A DNA stretch of 38,737 nucleotides from positions 1 to 38,737 of the forward strand of contig NZ_CALEMX010000074.1 of NCBI RefSeq assembly GCF_937910335.1, given 5' to 3'. The notes below the pieces were generated by a model. The model saw only the letters and a program-made list of their open reading frames with translations. It had not been told where the DNA came from and did no database searches. This DNA comes from an uncultured Gimesia sp. (GTDB taxonomy: Bacteria; Planctomycetota; Planctomycetia; Planctomycetales; Planctomycetaceae). Shown in pieces: positions 2,648 through 37,398 of the stretch (position 1 is the first letter of the stretch; each line of letters begins with the position of its first letter). Both the position numbers and the translations under genes were made by a program.

Positions 2648-5311
2648 ATGGACCTGCATCAACAAATCGATATTGTTTGGATTCTCATCTGTAGTATTTT
2701 TGTACTATTTATGCAGGCAGGATTTTGCTGTCTGGAATCTGGTTTATCCCGATCAAAAAACAGTATACATGTTGCTATTAAAAATGTGGTCGATGTCAGT
2801 ACCGTCGGCATTCTTTTCTGGATATTTGGTTTCGGACTGATGTTTGGAACAACTACGGGAGGCTTGATTGGAACGTCACATTTTCCCTATATGAATTCGG
2901 GAACCGACAATTTCTTATCGGCTTTTTTCATATTCCAGCTCATGCTCTGTGTGACAGCAGCCACGATTGCATCCGGAGCGTCTGCAGAAAGAATGCGGTT
3001 CACTGCGTATGTGATACTTTCGATTGTACTGGGAGGATTGATTTACCCTGTCTTCGGGCATTGGGTTTGGACCAGTCACTTTGCAGGTAAAGCTCCCGGA
3101 TGGCTAGAGTCTCTAGGCTTCAAAGATTTTAGTGGTTCAACTGTTGTGCACTCATTAGGTGCTTGGGCAGCATTGGCATCCGTTGTGATCATTGGCCCTC
3201 GCATTGGAAGATTCGACAAAAAACAAAGCGCACGCAAATTCAAAGGTCATAACCTGACATTGGCAACAATGGGTGTGTTTATTCTTTGGATTGGTTGGTT
3301 TGGCTTCAACGGTGGTAGCGAATTTGGGTTCACATCGCATGTTCCATCAATCCTGATCAATACATTTCTTGCTTCGGCCTTTGGTGCATCCACCATGTTG
3401 ATCTGGCAATTCTATCAACGTAAGAATATTGAGATTGAAAATATTCTGAATGGCCTTTTGGCAGGGCTTGTCGCCAGTAGCGCCAGTTGCGATGTGATTT
3501 CACACATCTCCGCAGCAATGATCGGCATCGTCGCTGCCATTGTAATGGAATGCGGCACCTGGCTATTAGAGCGATATCAGCTGGACGATACCATAGGCGT
3601 AATCCCAGTGCATGGGTTTGCCGGTGTTTGGGGAACGCTTGCTGTTGCACTTTTTGTACCAGCAGAATTTCTCACTCAGACACGATTTCAACAATTTTCA
3701 ATCCAATTATTAGGCTGTGTCGTTTGTTTCATCTGGTGTTTTTCATTCTGTTGGGTCACATTACGAGTCGCGAGTAAATTCGTTCGTCTCAGAGCGACTC
3801 CCGAGGAAGAGGAAATCGGCCTGAATATGGCTGAACACGGTGCGACAACAGAAATGTATGATCTACTCAGTTCAATGGAACACCATATTCAGGGCGATTC
3901 CAGTCCCATCCAGGATCTTGATGAACATAGTGACGTCGGATTAATTGCTAAACAATATAACCGTGTCTCTGAAATTCGAGACCAGGCGCTCAATGAACTC
4001 AAGGATAGGACTGACAACCTGGAAACAGCTCGTGGAGAACTGGAAGAAAAAGCTTCACGCTTGAAAAAGGCCAACAAGGACGCAGAGACAGCATCGCGTG
4101 CCAAAAGTGAGTTCCTGGCAAATATGAGCCACGAAATACGAACTCCGATGACCGCGGTAATGGGTTACACGGATTTACTGATTGAAGAAAGCTGGTGTCG
4201 ACCGGCCAGTTTGAAATTACTTGATGTTATTAAGAGAAATGGAAATTATTTACTCGACCTCATCAATGATATTCTCGACCTTTCTAAAATTGAATCGGGA
4301 AAACTGACGATCGAAACAATTGACTTTTGCCTGATTGAGAAACTGAATGAAGTTCAATCATTAATGAGCGTTCGCGCAGAAATCCAGGAACTTCAATTCG
4401 ATCTCGCATTCAATGGAAAGATACCTGATCGGGTTAAAAGTGATCCAACTCGACTCAAACAGATACTGATCAATCTAGTAGGTAATGCCATCAAATTCAC
4501 ACCTGATGGCGGAAAAGTGTTATTGGAAACTTCATTTCTCAATTCAGAATCTGACAAGCCAATGATACAGTTCAAAATTCAGGATACTGGGATTGGCATG
4601 ACGTCAGATCAAATAAAGAATTTGTATCAACCTTTTGTTCAAGCAGACTCTTCCACAACGCGTAAATTCGGTGGTACAGGGCTGGGCTTAGCCATCAGTA
4701 AAAGACTCTCCGAAATGCTGGGCGGCGCTCTGGTTTGCGAAAGCGTTCCTGATGAAGGAACGACATTCATTCTGACAATCACTATCGGTGACCTGGAATC
4801 CATCCAGTTTCATGAAGATCCGCTGGCTGCGATGAAAGCAATTTCGGTCAGCAACCAAGAGAAAACTCCTGCCTCAGGGGCCTCCAGGGAAAAACTGAAA
4901 GGCAGCTGTAGTGTACTACTCGCAGAAGATGGTCCCGATAATCAACGATTGATCAGCACATTACTGAAAAAAGAGGGAGCAAAAGTGATGCTGGCGGAAA
5001 ATGGAGAAATTGCTGTCAGACGTGCAATGGATGCGCTGGAGAATGGAAAACCTTTCGATGTTGTTTTGATGGACATGTCGATGCCCGTTTTGGACGGTTA
5101 TGGTGCCACCAGAATGTTGCGAGAATCGGGATATGAATTGCCAATTATTGCATTGACGGCCCATGCCATGAGCGGTGATCGCGAAAAATGCGTTGCAGCA
5201 GGTTGCAATGATTATACAACAAAACCTATTAATCGAGAGAAACTCAGAGAGATCGTGCATACTTATCAGACTGTGACTGTGGAAGAAGCTCTGATTGAAA
5301 CGGAAGTTTAA
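2648..5311 (+). CDS. Ammonium transporter - histidine kinase - receiver fusion (887 aa)
   Basis: Residues 1-375 are an Amt/Rh channel of about 11 membrane segments. It opens with the typical FMQAGFCCLESGL segment and keeps D160, the pore histidines H168 (DFSGSTVVH) and H322 (VHGFAGVWGT), and GWFGFN (216-221). Residues 380-400 (EEEEIGLNMAEHGA) match the usual Amt C-terminal tail. A coiled linker (about 430-485) leads to a HisKA domain with phospho-accepting H495 (MSHEIRTPM). The HATPase domain has its N box around N613, and G boxes DTGIG (646-650) and GGTGLGLA (675-682). A receiver (755-870) follows with acidic E760/D761, acceptor D809, T837 and K859. No HPt domain is present, so phosphate probably passes to a separate HPt or stays in the protein. 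The retained pore residues suggest it binds, and perhaps conducts, ammonium while signalling. Amt-kinase fusions are known, for example Amt5 of Kuenenia; the attached receiver is an extra. Divergent from carB. Confidence 0.93.
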   Translation: MDLHQQIDIVWILICSIFVLFMQAGFCCLESGLSRSKNSIHVAIKNVVDVSTVGILFWIFGFGLMFGTTTGGLIGTSHFPYMNSGTDNFLSAFFIFQLMLCVTAATIASGASAERMRFTAYVILSIVLGGLIYPVFGHWVWTSHFAGKAPGWLESLGFKDFSGSTVVHSLGAWAALASVVIIGPRIGRFDKKQSARKFKGHNLTLATMGVFILWIGWFGFNGGSEFGFTSHVPSILINTFLASAFGASTMLIWQFYQRKNIEIENILNGLLAGLVASSASCDVISHISAAMIGIVAAIVMECGTWLLERYQLDDTIGVIPVHGFAGVWGTLAVALFVPAEFLTQTRFQQFSIQLLGCVVCFIWCFSFCWVTLRVASKFVRLRATPEEEEIGLNMAEHGATTEMYDLLSSMEHHIQGDSSPIQDLDEHSDVGLIAKQYNRVSEIRDQALNELKDRTDNLETARGELEEKASRLKKANKDAETASRAKSEFLANMSHEIRTPMTAVMGYTDLLIEESWCRPASLKLLDVIKRNGNYLLDLINDILDLSKIESGKLTIETIDFCLIEKLNEVQSLMSVRAEIQELQFDLAFNGKIPDRVKSDPTRLKQILINLVGNAIKFTPDGGKVLLETSFLNSESDKPMIQFKIQDTGIGMTSDQIKNLYQPFVQADSSTTRKFGGTGLGLAISKRLSEMLGGALVCESVPDEGTTFILTITIGDLESIQFHEDPLAAMKAISVSNQEKTPASGASREKLKGSCSVLLAEDGPDNQRLISTLLKKEGAKVMLAENGEIAVRRAMDALENGKPFDVVLMDMSMPVLDGYGATRMLRESGYELPIIALTAHAMSGDREKCVAAGCNDYTTKPINREKLREIVHTYQTVTVEEALIETEV

Positions 5312-5325
5312 ACGAGCAACTTTGT

Positions 5326-5784
5326 TTATCTTATGAGATCACGGTTTAGTTTTAAAAATTCATCAGCCCAAAAGTATCCGTCCAACAATCCTTCCGTATT
5401 ATAACCCATTAATTGGTAGGCAATAAAAATCGCTTCGATGGTCGCCAAGCCGATTGCGGGATCATCAAACTGCTTGGAAACGCGCGGGTAAGCGGTTTTC
5501 CAGATTGGCAAGCTACGCACGGGGAGCTCTTCGTATGCAGGTTCCATTTTTTCTGCCAATCGCCAGGTACCATCCAAAACCAGCAGTCCTGAAGCAGCGT
5601 CCGCTTCACTGATCTGTGGACCTTCCATTCCCAATCGGACATATCCAGTCAATTTGTCAGGCTCTTTTCTCGGATACTTCCAGAATAGAAAATCACTTCG
5701 TGCGCGCAACGGCTGTACCGTACATTTACTTTTTCGTTCCTTGGGATGAACAACAATGATTGTAGGAGGTTGCGAAATAGACAC
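5326..5784 (-). CDS. Tsr3/DTW-superfamily (TDD) aminocarboxypropyltransferase-like protein
   Basis: The 152-residue protein resembles Tsr3 (COG2042), the SPOUT-fold enzyme that transfers the aminocarboxypropyl group of SAM to small-subunit rRNA in archaea and eukaryotes. It also resembles the related bacterial DTW tRNA enzymes. Seen in the sequence: an N-terminal HPKERKSKC segment; a central [15 protein letters not shown], the place of the D-x-x-W signature; and [13 protein letters not shown] followed by [16 protein letters not shown]. The end [15 protein letters not shown] closely parallels the Tsr3 C-terminus (W-x-x-x-F-L-x-L-N). Start is GTG at 5784, with no strong Shine-Dalgarno. It converges on the Amt-kinase with 14 bp between stops. 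The superfamily call is solid. The exact substrate, 16S rRNA or tRNA, is inferred and open. Confidence 0.75.
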
Positions 5785-5872: not shown

Positions 5873-5896
5873 TCAGGAAGCTTCCTGAATTTTTTT
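5873..5896 (+). terminator. Palindrome plus T-tract, plus-strand terminator-like
   Basis: TCAGGAAGCTTCCTGA (5873-5888) is a perfect palindrome that can fold with a 6-bp stem and 4-nt loop. It is followed by A and seven T residues, so it has intrinsic-terminator shape for plus-strand RNA. The nearest plus-strand gene is the Amt-kinase, which ends about 560 bp earlier, so it would stop read-through antisense to the tsr3-like gene. On the minus strand no T-run follows. Confidence 0.35.
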
Positions 5897-6052
5897 AATG
5901 GCCTGCTCGTGAGTGGCGATCTCCTGCTCAAGATTTTTTACTTCCTGAGGATCGTCCATTTGTTCTTTCGCTCCTGTTAAACGCTGACGCAACTTTAGAA
6001 TTTTTTGACGCGCCACGTCAATTTGTTTTTTCTGTTTCTTGTTCAAACTCAT
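5873..6052 (-). CDS. 59-residue coiled-coil small protein, function unknown
   Basis: The frame starts with ATG at 6052 (MSLNKKQKKQIDVARQKI...) and ends ...EQAIKKIQEAS. It is highly charged and helical, with heptad-like spacing of I/L/V residues and a short break at DDPQ. This is typical of a small two-helix coiled-coil protein. A GAGAGG sits 14 nt upstream of the ATG as a rather distant Shine-Dalgarno. Its stop codon lies inside a perfect 16-bp palindrome. It lies between the tsr3-like gene and the BatA gene, both on the same strand. The Lys/Gln/Glu-rich composition and clean length argue for a real gene. I do not recognise a family. Confidence 0.65.
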   Translation of the reverse strand: MSLNKKQKKQIDVARQKILKLRQRLTGAKEQMDDPQEVKNLEQEIATHEQAIKKIQEAS

Positions 6053-6150: not shown

Positions 6151-8397
6151 TCATTGGAAAAAGAAGCTCAGACAACTCAGGAACATTACCGCTAGAAACG
6201 AAAGTGCGCCGATGGAAAAACGCCACAGTAATAACTGTTCTACTACAATCAATGCTAAAACGGTAAACAGCAGGATTTCAGAAAAACCGGCATGCGATGT
6301 TCGATCAGCAGACAATTCGTTCGATACACTTGCAGTGCCAGATTGTCTGCGAAAATATTCTGGTGGAATGAGTTGTGGCCCGATATGTTTCAAATCACTT
6401 TCCCGCGGAGAAACATTGACTGCATAAAGTGTTTTCTCTAAAGCAGACTTTTCCCAGTCCAGCTCATAAATTCCGGATTGGAATGTCTGATTGAAAGTAA
6501 TCGTTCTAGAGTCAGTGTTTCTGTCGAGTGCACTTTGTAATGGAAATTCTTTTTGGTCAGGTGCAATCATTTTCGGAGAAAAAGCAATTTGATTCTCAAG
6601 CGTCATGATTTCCAATGGTTGACCAATCTGAGCATCGCGTCGACCCCATTTTCCAGTGGATACATAAAGCACCAGTTCGTTCATCAGAGGAGGAAAACTC
6701 GGCCAGATCGCCCACGTACCCCACTGGCGGTCTAATGACGTTGTGATCAGAACGACCTTGCCGCGTCCCAATGTGCGCTCTACGATCGCAGGGTCATTCG
6801 TGTCATAATTTAAAATCAAACGCGTATGGGGATCGGGAAGAACCTCGGCCTGGAAATATTCATACAAATGTGTCGTTTCCAGACCGGCATCCGGGTTTCC
6901 TTTGAAAATTTCGATGACCGGATGTTGATATTTTAAAGGATCAAATTCAAACAGAGTGGTATGTTTTTGAGCGTCACCTTGACGGTTTAATAATTTTAAA
7001 GGGATTAGTCCGGACTTTGGCTGGAAAAGAGTCTGATTGTAATTATCCACATTGACTTGTGCTCCCAGACTGAGAATCAATCCCCCTCCACTCTTTACAT
7101 AAGATTTTAACAAATCCCGTTCGTTTTCAGTAAACAAAGCCACGTCACAAATTACGACGGCGTCATAAAGGCTTAATTCAGTATTGGAGAGCTCACCTTC
7201 GCTGATCACCTGTGGTTTGATGATCCCTTGCCACGGCTGTTCCTTCAACGAGGGGGACAATGCCAGCTTAAGATAATCGGTCGCCTTTCCCATCGAGTCG
7301 CCGGATTGTCTGCCATTTACCAGTAGGACGTGGATGTCTTTTTTGACAGGCATCACTTTCCAACGACGATTATCCAAAGGCAGCAGATCCTCTGCGAGTC
7401 TGACTTCCAGACGATGGTCTCCAATTCTTGTAAATTGATGTGTGAATTCAGTTTGCGTATCGGCATTAGCGGGGAGATTCACCAGTTTTTGATTGATAAG
7501 TTGACCATCGACCAACAATTGCACATTGACATTCTCCTGACTCAACTCACTGAAATTATGCAGTGTGATTCCCAGTCGAACCGGTTGATTCAATGTGGCA
7601 AAAACAGACTTGCTGGAAAAGTCAATAATAGCCAGATTGGGTTCTTTTGTGAGGCCAACATCTTTTAATATGAGAGTCGACTTTTTTGAAATCGCTTCCA
7701 TTAAAGATCGAATTCTTGTACTACTCTGATCCGTTTGTCGCGATGACCAGCTTCGTGACTGAAAATCACTGATCACAATCACTTCCTTCTGCGCCAGCTC
7801 TTGTGCCTGTCCTAAAAATTCCAGAGCCGTCTGCAGCGACTGCTCCACGTTTCCGAATTCTTCCGTGGGACGCATGCGGGCAATTTCATCTATGACATAG
7901 GTCTGCTGGCGGGAAGGTCGCGAAATTAATGTTTGTGGGGAAGAATTTGATATTTGAATTAACTGAAAGGCATCTCCCGGATTTGACCTCGAAACCTGAG
8001 CGGTTGCCAGTTCTTTTGCTTCTTCGAACAACGATTGAACTTCACCTTTCCAGCGCATACTGAAAGAGGCGTCGATCACGAAAATACGATGCACGGGAGC
8101 GGCTGATTCAACGAAAGCCCCTTGTACAGACCAATAGGGACGCGAAAAAGCAATGGCCAACAACAACAAAATCAGACAGCGAACCAGCAGGACAAGTAAC
8201 TGTTCAAATCTGACACGTCGCGAATATTTTTTTGTGGCAATCAGCAAAAATTTCATTGCCGCCCACTCGGTCTCAATAAACTTTCGCTTATGCAGCAAAT
8301 GGATCAGAACCGGTATGCCAGCAGTCAATAATCCAGCCAATAACCAGGGGCTGGCAAATCCAAATGCAAAGACGGGGGTAATTAATATATCGGTCAT
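6151..8397 (-). CDS. BatA/VWA-domain membrane protein (748 aa)
   Basis: Residues 13-90 form the BatA N-terminal (aerotolerance regulator) region: a first membrane helix, the signature IPVLIHLLHKRKF, and a second helix LLVLLVRCLILLLLAIAFSR. A von Willebrand A domain follows with an intact MIDAS DxSxS (D109-A-S111-F-S113), so it should bind a metal ion and a protein ligand. The large middle part has beta-rich periplasmic-type sequence and a Rossmann/glutamine-amidotransferase-like stretch (around VHVLLVNG and YDAVVICDV), common in planctomycete BatA proteins. A C-terminal membrane helix (about 708-730) closes it. It is the last gene of a moxR-DUF58-batA operon, 21 bp after DUF58. In this family MoxR ATPases act as chaperones on VWA proteins. 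The actual client or role here is unknown. ATG at 8397 has no clear Shine-Dalgarno; translation may be coupled to the upstream gene. Confidence 0.85.
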   Translation of the reverse strand: MTDILITPVFAFGFASPWLLAGLLTAGIPVLIHLLHKRKFIETEWAAMKFLLIATKKYSRRVRFEQLLVLLVRCLILLLLAIAFSRPYWSVQGAFVESAAPVHRIFVIDASFSMRWKGEVQSLFEEAKELATAQVSRSNPGDAFQLIQISNSSPQTLISRPSRQQTYVIDEIARMRPTEEFGNVEQSLQTALEFLGQAQELAQKEVIVISDFQSRSWSSRQTDQSSTRIRSLMEAISKKSTLILKDVGLTKEPNLAIIDFSSKSVFATLNQPVRLGITLHNFSELSQENVNVQLLVDGQLINQKLVNLPANADTQTEFTHQFTRIGDHRLEVRLAEDLLPLDNRRWKVMPVKKDIHVLLVNGRQSGDSMGKATDYLKLALSPSLKEQPWQGIIKPQVISEGELSNTELSLYDAVVICDVALFTENERDLLKSYVKSGGGLILSLGAQVNVDNYNQTLFQPKSGLIPLKLLNRQGDAQKHTTLFEFDPLKYQHPVIEIFKGNPDAGLETTHLYEYFQAEVLPDPHTRLILNYDTNDPAIVERTLGRGKVVLITTSLDRQWGTWAIWPSFPPLMNELVLYVSTGKWGRRDAQIGQPLEIMTLENQIAFSPKMIAPDQKEFPLQSALDRNTDSRTITFNQTFQSGIYELDWEKSALEKTLYAVNVSPRESDLKHIGPQLIPPEYFRRQSGTASVSNELSADRTSHAGFSEILLFTVLALIVVEQLLLWRFSIGALSFLAVMFLSCLSFFFQ

Positions 8398-8418
8398 ATG
8401 CTTGAAGTTCAGAAAATT

Positions 8419-9324
8419 CTAAGATCTAATTCGAGTCTGTCGTTGTGACAAAAAGGCAGATAAAGCAATATCCAGTGATTGATCGGTGCGGATCAGGGCA
8501 TAATCCATTTTTAAGTCTCGACTCCCACGCTGTACGTTTTTTAAAAACTTCTCAAATTCGGCCTGATACGCTTTCTTCAGCGAGCGGGGTTCCGCCATCT
8601 GTTCGGGCTGGTTTTCCAGACCGCGGAACAGGACCGGCTCTTGAAATGGAAAATCCTGCTCTGCGGGATCAATGACCTGTAATAGACTGACATCATGTTT
8701 TCGATGCCGAAAATGTTTTAATCCCAGCATGACGGAATCGAGATCATCAAACAGATCGCTGATAATAATTATTAAACTGCGGCGAGAAATTCTTTCAGCC
8801 AATTCATGAAAAACCTTACCTAAGCCTGACTCTCCTGCAGGCTCTGTATGTTCCAGAGTGTAATGAATCTGTTTTAAATGAGTAGGCTGACTTGCAGGTC
8901 TGAGAAAATCGACTATTTGATTATTGATGGTACACAGCCCGGCTGCATCTTGCTGTTTGATGACCACATATGCCAGAGCGGCTGCCACCAACCGACCATA
9001 ATCCCACTTCGAAAGGGCGGCATTTTCTGAACGGTATCGCATGGACTCGCTGCAGTCGAGCAAGAGATAACAGGTGAAATTCGTCTCGGCTTCATACTGT
9101 TTCAGATAATAGCGATCTGACTTGGCATAAACCTTCCAGTCAACATAACGTAAATCATCACCAGAGGCATATTCTCGATGTTGTGCAAACTCTGCAGAAA
9201 AGCCGTGAAAGGGACTCTTGTGGGAGCCCGAGACATAGCCTTCCACAATCTGCCTCGCTGCAAGATCCAGATTCTGAACTTTAGCGAGCGTCTGTGGATC
9301 TAAATACTTGCGGTAATCGTTCAT
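8419..9324 (-). CDS. DUF58 family protein
   Basis: A cytosolic protein of 301 residues. It carries the hallmark DUF58 block FAQHREYASGDDLRYVDWKV, followed by a VWA-like fold with LLLDCSESM (DxSxS-like) and SLIIIISDLFDD. DUF58 proteins are almost always encoded next to MoxR ATPases, as here, and are thought to work with them in assembling or activating protein complexes. GTG at 9327 and ATG at 9324 are adjacent. The ATG is chosen because AGGA lies at the better distance. The start overlaps the end of the moxR frame by 44 bp, which indicates tight translational coupling. Confidence 0.9.
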   Translation of the reverse strand: MNDYRKYLDPQTLAKVQNLDLAARQIVEGYVSGSHKSPFHGFSAEFAQHREYASGDDLRYVDWKVYAKSDRYYLKQYEAETNFTCYLLLDCSESMRYRSENAALSKWDYGRLVAAALAYVVIKQQDAAGLCTINNQIVDFLRPASQPTHLKQIHYTLEHTEPAGESGLGKVFHELAERISRRSLIIIISDLFDDLDSVMLGLKHFRHRKHDVSLLQVIDPAEQDFPFQEPVLFRGLENQPEQMAEPRSLKKAYQAEFEKFLKNVQRGSRDLKMDYALIRTDQSLDIALSAFLSQRQTRIRS

Positions 9325-10369
9325 CACGTTTTTCCTGAGAGGAATCCACAGAAATGAGTTGTATCAATCGGTCTACAATCTTATCAGGAGTCATTCCCTC
9401 AGCTTCTGCGTTGAAATTGGTGATGATGCGGTGTCTTAAAACAGGATGTGCCACTGCTCGCACATCGTCCGTACTCACATACATCCGTCCGTGTAGAATG
9501 GCCCGCGCTTTCGCCCCCAGGATCAAATTCTGACTGGCACGTGGCCCAGCGCCCCAACTGACAAACTCGCGTATGAAGTCGGGGATATCATCAGAGTTCG
9601 AATCATCGCCTTGCAGGACGCGTGTCATACGGGCAAATTGCATGGCATAGCGGATAATATGATCCGCCACCGGTACTTTTCGAACGAGAGACTGAAATGA
9701 TAACAGCTCATCCATCTCCAGCACTTTTTTAACAGAATAGGAATCGTCAGACGTCGTCTGCCGCACGATGGCAAATTCTTCCTCTTCGCTCGGGTAATCG
9801 ACTTTAATCTCAAACATGAAGCGATCCAGTTGCGCTTCAGGCAGTGGATACGTTCCCTCCTGTTCAATCGGATTTTGAGTTGCCAGTACAAAAAAGGGAA
9901 CAGGCAGTTTGTGTTTTCGGCCTCCTGCAGTGACCTGATGTTCCTGCATTGCTTCCAGCAAAGCGGCTTGCGTTTTGGGAGGTGTCCGGTTGATTTCATC
10001 GGCGAGTACCACATTCGAAAACACAGGACCTGGCAGAAATTTGAAATCACGATTGCCGGTACTTTTATCTTCCTGAATGACATCGGTTCCTGTAATGTCA
10101 GCCGGCATTAAATCGGGTGTAAACTGCACGCGGTTGAAAGTCAGATTCAATGTATCCGCCAGGGTATGCACGATTAATGTTTTCGCCAGACCAGGTACAC
10201 CTACCAGTAGGCTATGACCGCCGGCTAACAGAGAGATCATTAACTCTTCAACTACCTGATGCTGACCGATAATCACTCGGTTCACTTCCTGCATCAGTTG
10301 CTCATATGCCTGATTTAATTTTTCAACGGCTTCCAGATCGGAAGATTCCATCGTAGGGTCGCTGCTCAC
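9281..10369 (-). CDS. MoxR-family AAA+ ATPase (operon copy, 362 aa)
   Basis: The AAA+ core is complete: Walker A as GVPGLAKT (57-64), the variant usual for this subgroup; Walker B VVLADEINR with D124/E125; the ATQNPIEQEGTYPLPEAQLDRFMFE segment with sensor 1 and arginine finger region; and a C-terminal lid (ASQNLILGAKARAILHGR). It is predicted to hydrolyse ATP to remodel or activate the VWA-domain partners encoded downstream. The frame opens with GTG at 10369; an ATG six codons in (10351) is an alternative and neither has a strong Shine-Dalgarno. It is separated by 107 bp from the upstream hydrolase, and overlaps DUF58 by 44 bp. Confidence 0.93.
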   Translation of the reverse strand: MSSDPTMESSDLEAVEKLNQAYEQLMQEVNRVIIGQHQVVEELMISLLAGGHSLLVGVPGLAKTLIVHTLADTLNLTFNRVQFTPDLMPADITGTDVIQEDKSTGNRDFKFLPGPVFSNVVLADEINRTPPKTQAALLEAMQEHQVTAGGRKHKLPVPFFVLATQNPIEQEGTYPLPEAQLDRFMFEIKVDYPSEEEEFAIVRQTTSDDSYSVKKVLEMDELLSFQSLVRKVPVADHIIRYAMQFARMTRVLQGDDSNSDDIPDFIREFVSWGAGPRASQNLILGAKARAILHGRMYVSTDDVRAVAHPVLRHRIITNFNAEAEGMTPDKIVDRLIQLISVDSSQEKRDERLPQVFRSTDAR

Positions 10370-36116: not shown

Positions 36117-37304
36117 TTAATCCTGGCGTTCGAAATGCAACGGGTGATCTGATTCTAGATCAGCCACGCGCATCGAAATTTTTCCATCAAGCACATCCGT
36201 CAATAAATCGCCGCATACATCAGCACGCCAGCCAACCATTAAACGCGGCTTCTTCTCACTCTGTTCTCGATAGACGTGATAGCGTACCAGATGTCTTAAG
36301 TCAGCGGTTGTGCCTACCAGACTTTGAGCGACATTCATTTCTGCACAACGATTTGCCAGCGCGATACCCAGCAATTTTCCGATGACCTGTTCATCTTGAT
36401 TCTGATGGTTATTGGGATTTTCGATATGTTGAGGAAGCTGATCCTTGGGAATCTGTTGCGCTATAGCAATACGCTCTATCACATCAGGGGCCAGCTTGAA
36501 CATGTTCTTACGATTTAAATCACGTGTCGCTATGAGATCTTGTGTTGTAGTTGGCTTCCGACGAGCAAGTTCGATTAGTAAATCATCGCGCATCACTCTG
36601 CGCGCCGGTTGGTCTTTTTTCTGAGCCACTTCGTCCCGCCAGTCGAACAGTTCACGGATGATGGCCAGTTCACGAGGCTTTAATTTATGTAATCCGGAAA
36701 GACGGCGCCAGTTTTCTCGATGAAATTCCGAATCGACTTCGTCAATCATGCGCTGGAATTCCGCATCGGCCCATGTAATGCGACCTAGATCGGTTAACTC
36801 TTTTTCCTGCGTTTTCCAGATTTTGAGCACGTATTTTACATCGTCCAGTGCGTATTTAATCTGCTGCTCAGTGAGTGGTCTGCGACGCCAGTCTGTACGG
36901 GTTTCTTTACTTCCCGCATTCGCATTCAATACACGCGCAACCAGCGCTGTATAAGAAATGGGAAAGCTGCGTGAACGCAAACCTTCTGCAATCTGTAAAT
37001 CAACCAGCTTTTGGGGTTTCTTACCAGAAAAATGCCGACAAAATCGTACCTCTTCGCGGCCTCCATGCACAATGACCGTCGTGGAATCATTTGTCATGAT
37101 TTCCCACCAGGGGGATAAATCTTTTACTTCGTAAGGATCGACGGCCACTGACTGACCGTTTAATGCAAACTGCAGCAGTGAAAGCTCCGGACGGTAAGTA
37201 AACTCCGAAACAAATTCTGTATCGAATGCAACAATGCCCGCGTCTAAGATTTGATCGCACAATGCGAGAAAATCAGACTGCTGAACAATGAGAGGGCTCG
37301 ACAT
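36117..37304 (-). CDS. rnd: Ribonuclease D
   Basis: A DEDDy 3'-5' exoribonuclease that trims tRNA and other stable RNA 3' ends. Seen in the 395-residue protein: exonuclease motif I IVAFDTEFVSE, motif II VIVHGGREEVRF (in a variant form), and motif III YALDDVKYVLKIW with the conserved Tyr-x3-Asp. TDWRRRPLTEQQIKYA is typical of RNase D. An HRDC domain follows (around ELFDWRDEVAQKKDQPARR and MRDDLLIELARRKP), plus a second helical C-terminal part. ATG 37304 is chosen because AGGAAG lies 11 nt upstream; a TTG at 37340 would add 12 residues with no support. Total length agrees with E. coli RNase D (about 375). Confidence 0.92.
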   Translation of the reverse strand: MSSPLIVQQSDFLALCDQILDAGIVAFDTEFVSEFTYRPELSLLQFALNGQSVAVDPYEVKDLSPWWEIMTNDSTTVIVHGGREEVRFCRHFSGKKPQKLVDLQIAEGLRSRSFPISYTALVARVLNANAGSKETRTDWRRRPLTEQQIKYALDDVKYVLKIWKTQEKELTDLGRITWADAEFQRMIDEVDSEFHRENWRRLSGLHKLKPRELAIIRELFDWRDEVAQKKDQPARRVMRDDLLIELARRKPTTTQDLIATRDLNRKNMFKLAPDVIERIAIAQQIPKDQLPQHIENPNNHQNQDEQVIGKLLGIALANRCAEMNVAQSLVGTTADLRHLVRYHVYREQSEKKPRLMVGWRADVCGDLLTDVLDGKISMRVADLESDHPLHFERQD

Positions 37305-37398
37305 CGCTCGATTACTTCCTATTTCTTTTACCAGGATCAACAGATTGATTTTCGGACGGTCACCCGCTGATCTGCTTGGAATTTATCTTACCTAAAAC

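Follow-up and report, generated by a model that had tools for sequence, protein, structure and literature searches.

A planctomycete protein of the pc1599 family resembles archaeal Tsr3 and is a candidate RNA acp transferase acting at a site other than 966

The gene on the minus strand at 5326-5784 of this uncultured Gimesia sp. DNA encodes a TDD-superfamily (Tsr3/DTWD) SPOUT protein. Acp transfer to RNA is strongly indicated by its conserved active site, and we regard this activity as highly probable from the sequence. Our leading reading, to which we give about an even chance, is that the protein is a SAM-dependent acp transferase whose substrate is a small-subunit rRNA uridine at some position other than 966. 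Small-subunit rRNA is favoured because of the affinity to Tsr3, the basic positions shared with it and the ribosomal operon in which some relatives are encoded; a position in tRNA is almost as probable a target. We infer catalysis, the acp product and the rRNA substrate, and likewise that the copy in the window does the same job as the copies in the str operon. The window, by which we mean the whole stretch of DNA analysed (38,737 nucleotides), comes from contig C74 of a 6.52 Mb genome in 635 contigs. The features discussed are as follows.

5326..5784, minus strand: Tsr3-like gene of the pc1599 kind (TDD superfamily, Tsr3/DTWD), 152 aa from a GTG start; from profiles, alignment and predicted structure
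5873..6052, minus strand: ORF of 59 aa, coiled-coil-like by eye, directly upstream of the Tsr3-like gene; possible operon partner
2648-5311, plus strand: ammonium transporter-histidine kinase-response regulator fusion, 887 aa, from domain typing; convergent with the Tsr3-like gene
6151-10369, minus strand: BatA/vWA, DUF58 and MoxR-type AAA ATPase cluster, upstream of the Tsr3-like gene and the 59-aa ORF
36117-37340, minus strand: ribonuclease D-like protein with 3'-5' exonuclease and HRDC domains, from a profile match

The open reading frame singled out in the original prediction proved to be a real gene. It runs exactly from 5784 to 5326, starts with GTG and has its stop within these coordinates. 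In the alignment, the column of the GTG start holds V in the nearest relatives, and the start is supported because its position is conserved among them. A search of named records returned 11 relatives, every one with a planctomycete title, the nearest with a genus name being from Gimesia at 85% identity.

The 2014 classification of the TDD superfamily by Burroughs and Aravind recognises five families, one of which, 'pc1599', is described as occurring mainly in planctomycetes, verrucomicrobia and chlamydiae (PMC4275035). The window gene is a new member of this known family, an assignment that rests on its taxon and on its being the sole non-TapT kind of TDD protein in our planctomycete searches. 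Like the pc1599 proteins, it belongs to a group of bacterial non-DTWD TDD proteins with planctomycetes among their hosts. In a tree of the family together with 28 planctomycete TapT proteins, the two formed separate groups with a support of 100, and this distinctness together with the planctomycete distribution agrees with the description of pc1599; archaeal Tsr3 was compared by profile and structure. A Tsr3-like protein in a bacterium had been put forward as a surprise, but the 2014 paper already included a pc1599-type protein from Planctomyces brasiliensis (PMC4275035). A 2019 survey reports TSR3 orthologues as 'not in bacteria'. Literature searches by title and abstract found no experiment on the function of the pc1599 family, and the 2014 paper, the only one found to use that name, assigns the family no tested function. 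That paper predicted an RNase (PMC4275035). The activity indicated by studies of Tsr3 and of YfiP/TapT is SAM-dependent acp transfer, in which the Asp of the D/E-x-S/T-W motif is the probable base (PMC7026641, PMC6895100, PMC10491745), and because of this later biochemistry we consider acp transfer far likelier than RNase activity.

Profile scores of the window protein on its own were all below cutoff: 30.0 bits for Pfam DTW (gathering cutoff 33.7), 27.8 bits for Ribo_biogen_C, the Tsr3 C-terminal profile (cutoff 29.9), 36.5 bits for NCBIfam DUF367 (PRK02287; cutoff 152) and 17.2 bits for TSR3Vulc0418 (cutoff 300). The last two lie far under their equivalog cutoffs, and in this the window protein differs from Tsr3 itself. 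We then scored an alignment of 39 rows, comprising the window protein and 38 relatives with identities down to 31%; copies or near-copies (L016, L018, L021) and three genomes with no locus at that stage (G148, G081, G064) were left out. At E<=0.01, DUF367 matched 37/39 members, Ribo_biogen_C 33/39 and DTW 26/39. The likeness of the family to Tsr3 and DTW is not due to chance. The Tsr3/DUF367 and DTW profile search that had been proposed gave real matches, sub-threshold for the single sequence, and TDD membership is upheld across the family. When the 39-member family profile was searched against solved structures, it found Tsr3 of V. distributa (E=1.6e-8) and of S. solfataricus (E=9e-4), and no TapT chain at E<=1. 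Compared directly with a profile of the 28 planctomycete TapT proteins, the family gave an hhalign probability of 97.9%, a clear sign of homology.

TDD proteins are characterised by an acidic residue (D/E) in the loop that follows the first strand, a D-small-[S/T]-W motif and, in the penultimate helix, a conserved E (PMC4275035). All of these are present in the family: E16, D71, W74 and E117 are invariant in 39/39 members and position 73 is T or S in 38/39. Also invariant throughout are K20, C21, L51, D62, R90, P100, R101, P109, G112, L113, A114, A118, L134 and Y137, and position 22 is S or T in every member. The main motifs lie at the following places in the gene.

5719..5739, minus strand: E16 ... 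K20-C21-T22, the first-loop acid followed by K-C-[S/T]; E16, K20 and C21 invariant
5563..5574, minus strand: DTW motif D71-G72-T73-W74; D71 and W74 invariant, aligned to D-C-S-W of 5apg
5515..5517, minus strand: R90, invariant Arg; Arg in both solved Tsr3 proteins in the alignment
5431..5496, minus strand: signature T97-A-Y-P-R-x-S ... D-P-x-x-G-L-A-T-I-E-A, corresponding to (A)ANP...LSTIEA of Tsr3; includes a lower-confidence loop in the model (mean pLDDT 55, residues 101-110)

In Tsr3, the Asp of the motif probably serves as catalytic base and the Trp holds SAM in position (PMC7026641, PMC10491745), and the SAM-binding Thr is T19 in V. distributa (PMC7026641). The K-C-[S/T] of the family aligns with R-C-T of 5ap8 (the 5apg counterpart is K-N-T by eye), which places an S or T at Tsr3's SAM-binding Thr. 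The family therefore shares with Tsr3 (PDB 5apg, 5ap8) the D-x-[S/T]-W motif and the SAM-site Thr/Ser, and also a short N-terminus and the R-x-[L/I]-P and L-[S/A]-[S/T]-[I/V]-E-A blocks, its R-x-L-P and TAYPR...GLA[ST][IV]EA corresponding to R-R-[LI]-P and ANP...LSTIEA. The original prediction of a Tsr3-like C-terminal half is supported. The invariant basic residues K20 and R90 stand at aligned places where Tsr3 is also basic, the likeness being one of basic character. E. coli YfiP/TapT is described as lacking conservation of the basic residues with which Tsr3 binds RNA (PMC7026641), and we found no conserved Arg at the place aligned to R90 among the 28 planctomycete TapT proteins.

The HPKERK and LDGTW segments, which had been likened to bacterial DTW enzymes, are both present in the window protein. 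The likeness holds for the first-loop acid, as E16 aligns with a Glu that is invariant in 28/28 TapT proteins, whereas S. solfataricus Tsr3 has Asp at this place (and V. distributa Tsr3 also Asp, by eye). TapT/YfiP (DTWD2; PDB 9kyt, 9kz5) further shares the D-G-T-W motif and the SPOUT fold. However, the N-terminal Cys-rich zinc-binding region of TapT, CxxCx6CxC, is absent from the window protein, which has no N-terminal extension; its four Cys are invariant in all 28 aligned TapT proteins (28 of 30 loci, L069 and L074 being left out). The structure prediction that had also been proposed returned a SPOUT model. The AlphaFold model has a pLDDT of 86.9 and a pTM of 0.85, and its best match was V. 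distributa Tsr3 (Foldseek E 2.9e-7; Z 14.0, rmsd 2.8, 141 residues aligned). E. coli TapT followed (9kz5, Foldseek E 3.3e-3; 9kyt, Z 10.5, rmsd 3.6, 128 aligned), and all later matches scored Z 8.7 or lower. As modelled, the window protein has the SPOUT-like fold of Tsr3 and TapT and, by profile and structure searches, is nearest to archaeal Tsr3 and then to bacterial TapT. The description of an 'intermediate' TDD form thus suits the sequence features, but not the protein overall, which is nearer to Tsr3.

In the mechanism that we propose, D71 would deprotonate N3 of the target uridine. W74, together with T/S22, would hold SAM with the acp chain rather than the methyl group facing the uridine, and transfer of the acp group would leave MTA. 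The target would be a conserved small-subunit rRNA uridine other than 966, modified during 30S assembly.

The uridine modified by Tsr3 in archaea and eukaryotes belongs to helix 31, and its position (E. coli 966, yeast 1191) is occupied by a methylated G in E. coli and other bacteria (PMC7026641). The E. coli 16S gene has G at 966. We found G at this position in 30/30 carriers of the Tsr3-like gene whose 16S was read: 6 from the phylum draw or named loci and 24 from the class sample described below, in which 24/40 genomes matched a helix-31 pattern that leaves position 966 free. The canonical Tsr3 target is therefore absent in these relatives. It was also G in 43/43 non-carriers. A pattern for any other base at 966 gave one match, on a contig other than that of the genome's 16S and unlike helix 31. 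A bacterial Tsr3 acting at site 966 of helix 31, as in archaea and eukaryotes, would fit the fold, the motifs and the ribosomal gene context seen in one clade. It is hardly credible given the G in all carriers read, the window's own 16S not being among them, and for the relatives read it is refuted. Searches with Rfam and the helix-31 pattern found no 16S in the window's genome or in the 7/7 drawn genomes of its family. Even the single-contig genomes of the family, to which G048, G069 and G024 belong, gave no 16S match, and the 16S gene is probably not truly absent from these family members. Among genomes reached via named loci, 16S was found in 1/11.

A uridine special to carriers was looked for elsewhere in 16S. 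Of 65 genomes with a 16S match, 48 were aligned and 17 were partial. In 49 sequences, 6 of them from carriers, no column combined T in every carrier with a low share of T elsewhere, and among the columns with T in every carrier the lowest share in non-carriers was 0.44. A carrier-specific 16S uridine was thus rejected. Both this result and the missing homologous substrate count against rRNA as the target, as does the possibility that the str-operon placement described below is a single event. An alternative substrate within 16S, U1498 with the enzyme in place of RsmE, was also rejected: RsmE (PF04452) is encoded in the window's genome, in 26/33 carriers and in 80/116 non-carriers.

To see how the gene is distributed, we searched planctomycete genomes within the phylum. 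The gene was carried by 33/149 genomes of an even draw, including 7/7 of the window's family. Matches were obtained in 35 genomes, but those in G115 and G146 (E about 1e-6 to 1e-7) overlapped these genomes' own TapT genes and were not counted; a second search, from which G085 and G115 were likewise dropped, gave the same 33 carriers. In the class of genome G109, 139/151 genomes carry the gene, as do 52/53 of those of good quality. TapT was present in 12/33 carriers compared to 23/116 non-carriers (odds ratio 2.3, Fisher p 0.063), and the DTW profile found no TapT above cutoff in the window's genome.

These figures bear on a second reading, that the protein is a tRNA acp transferase acting at a site other than TapT's U47, for example U20, U20a, U20b or U46, or at U47 itself where TapT is missing. 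We hold this possible, at somewhat less than even. TapT is an experimentally tested bacterial TDD enzyme and modifies tRNA (PMC7026641, PMC6895100), and Vibrio cholerae is reported to have acp3U or a derivative at positions 20b, 46 and 47 and three DTWD2 paralogues (PMC6895100). The lack of TapT in the window's genome and in 21/33 carriers, and the missing canonical rRNA uridine in relatives, would also suit a tRNA enzyme. Against it, the family is nearer to Tsr3 than to TapT by profile and structure, has no Cys-rich N-terminal domain and is encoded in the str operon in one clade. In addition, 12/149 genomes carry both genes, so the Tsr3-like gene is not a simple replacement of TapT, and its target is likely to be other than U47 where both occur.

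Gene order in some relatives is among the points that favour small-subunit rRNA. In three families of one class, the gene lies in the str operon, mostly in the order rpsL-rpsG-[gene]-fusA and just upstream of fusA. We sampled 40 of the 139 carriers of this class, these being the whole-gene matches among G160-G202 (fragments in G175, G176 and G194 were left out). There, fusA lay downstream on the same strand in 34/40 loci (33 within 200 nt) and rpsG upstream in 32/40 (26 within 600 nt); the 6/40 loci without fusA context were from families f45 and f77. Among 30 further class loci picked by score, fusA adjoined the gene in 10/30, all from f31, and the 20 without it were 19 from f45 and one from f77. 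Since the loci without this context are all from f45 or f77, the str-operon placement is limited to f31, f56 and f63 and is not a feature of the whole class. In the phylum draw it was seen in 5/32 carriers examined (G030, G074, G092, G109 and G140; G048 was left out), and the window's own family lacks it. G163, G199 and G201 are in both class sets, the 32 also include G030 and G125, and some loci stop near the gene at a contig end, where the context is partly seen.

The identity of the operon was checked at locus L178, where NCBIfam models well above their cutoffs gave rpoC, rpsL, rpsG, EF-G and rpsJ as neighbours. Two str-operon members that were scanned scored 30.8 (above) and 24.8 (below) against the Ribo_biogen_C cutoff of 29.9, with no DTW match at E<=0.01. 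The identity between 39 str-operon proteins was 36-98% (median 54%). On the tree the context needs 1 change, with a weak support of 24, which fits a single origin, retained across a wide span, rather than repeated independent linkage. The placement may thus be one event kept by descent.

The str-operon context of these distant relatives, which the window taken alone does not reveal, suggests a putative role on rRNA, at a site other than the classical one. Archaeal Tsr3 genes also adjoin ribosomal operons (PMC4275035), a likeness to Tsr3 that some family members share, and the str-operon context for pc1599 is not reported in the available text of that paper. Ribosomal-protein and EF-G neighbours would, however, suit a tRNA enzyme too. 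They would also suit a 30S assembly or translation factor with a SPOUT fold that acts on a protein, such as EF-G or S7, or non-catalytically, as the gene lies between rpsG and fusA in one clade. The arginine methyltransferase SFM1, of SPOUT fold, is among the structure matches (Z 8.7), and acp is also put onto EF-2 in diphthamide, the acp transferases outside the TDD superfamily being described as not homologous to it (PMC6895100). We consider a protein target or a non-catalytic role improbable, as the D/T/W residues of the active site show the strict conservation seen in RNA acp transferases, and the relatives of tested function (Tsr3, TapT, DTWD1/2) act on RNA (PMC7026641, PMC6895100).

The protein kind itself is ordinary, and the value of the finding lies in the str-operon context and the missing uridine, which sharpen the substrate question. 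A gene that is near-universal in one class, lies between S7 and EF-G in several families and occurs where its relatives' target uridine is missing raises a specific question: which RNA, and which uridine? The broader proposal, in which planctomycetes and related bacteria have an acp transferase devoted to small-subunit rRNA and hypermodifying a new uridine there, distinct from 966, has in our view a little under an even chance. If true, a ribosome hypermodification of archaeal/eukaryotic type would also occur in bacteria, but at another site of the ribosome, and its enzyme would be encoded inside the str operon in one lineage. If the target is 16S rRNA, acp hypermodification would extend to bacterial ribosomes, with a bearing on how the superfamily of Tsr3 and TapT divided between rRNA and tRNA. 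If the target is tRNA, a Tsr3-like enzyme without the TapT zinc domain would imply that this domain is dispensable for recognising tRNA.

The neighbours of the gene in the window were also followed in relatives. A homologue of the 59-aa ORF was found 0-608 nt upstream of the Tsr3-like gene on the same strand in 12/42 loci, the window included. Homologues occur in 20/149 genomes, some without the Tsr3-like gene (e.g. G121), and Pfam gave only a sub-threshold ABC_tran_CTD match. One homologue (G058:C398:11361-11522, plus strand, in L071) lies ~55 nt upstream of a TapT match, a hint that the ORF may have an accessory role for acp transferases generally. The 887-aa fusion combines an ammonium transporter domain with histidine kinase, ATPase and response-regulator receiver domains in one protein, and its homologue lies near the Tsr3-like gene in 5/42 loci, those of the nearest relatives. 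Same-strand synteny of the BatA/DUF58/MoxR cluster with the Tsr3-like gene was likewise seen only in the nearest relatives. The ribonuclease D-like protein at 36117-37340 scored 250.9, below the ribonuclease D equivalog cutoff of 298.95. In other relatives, the Tsr3-like gene adjoins an IspG-like gene (L179, L181 and L183) or a KdsB-like gene (L161 and L167), both named by eye.
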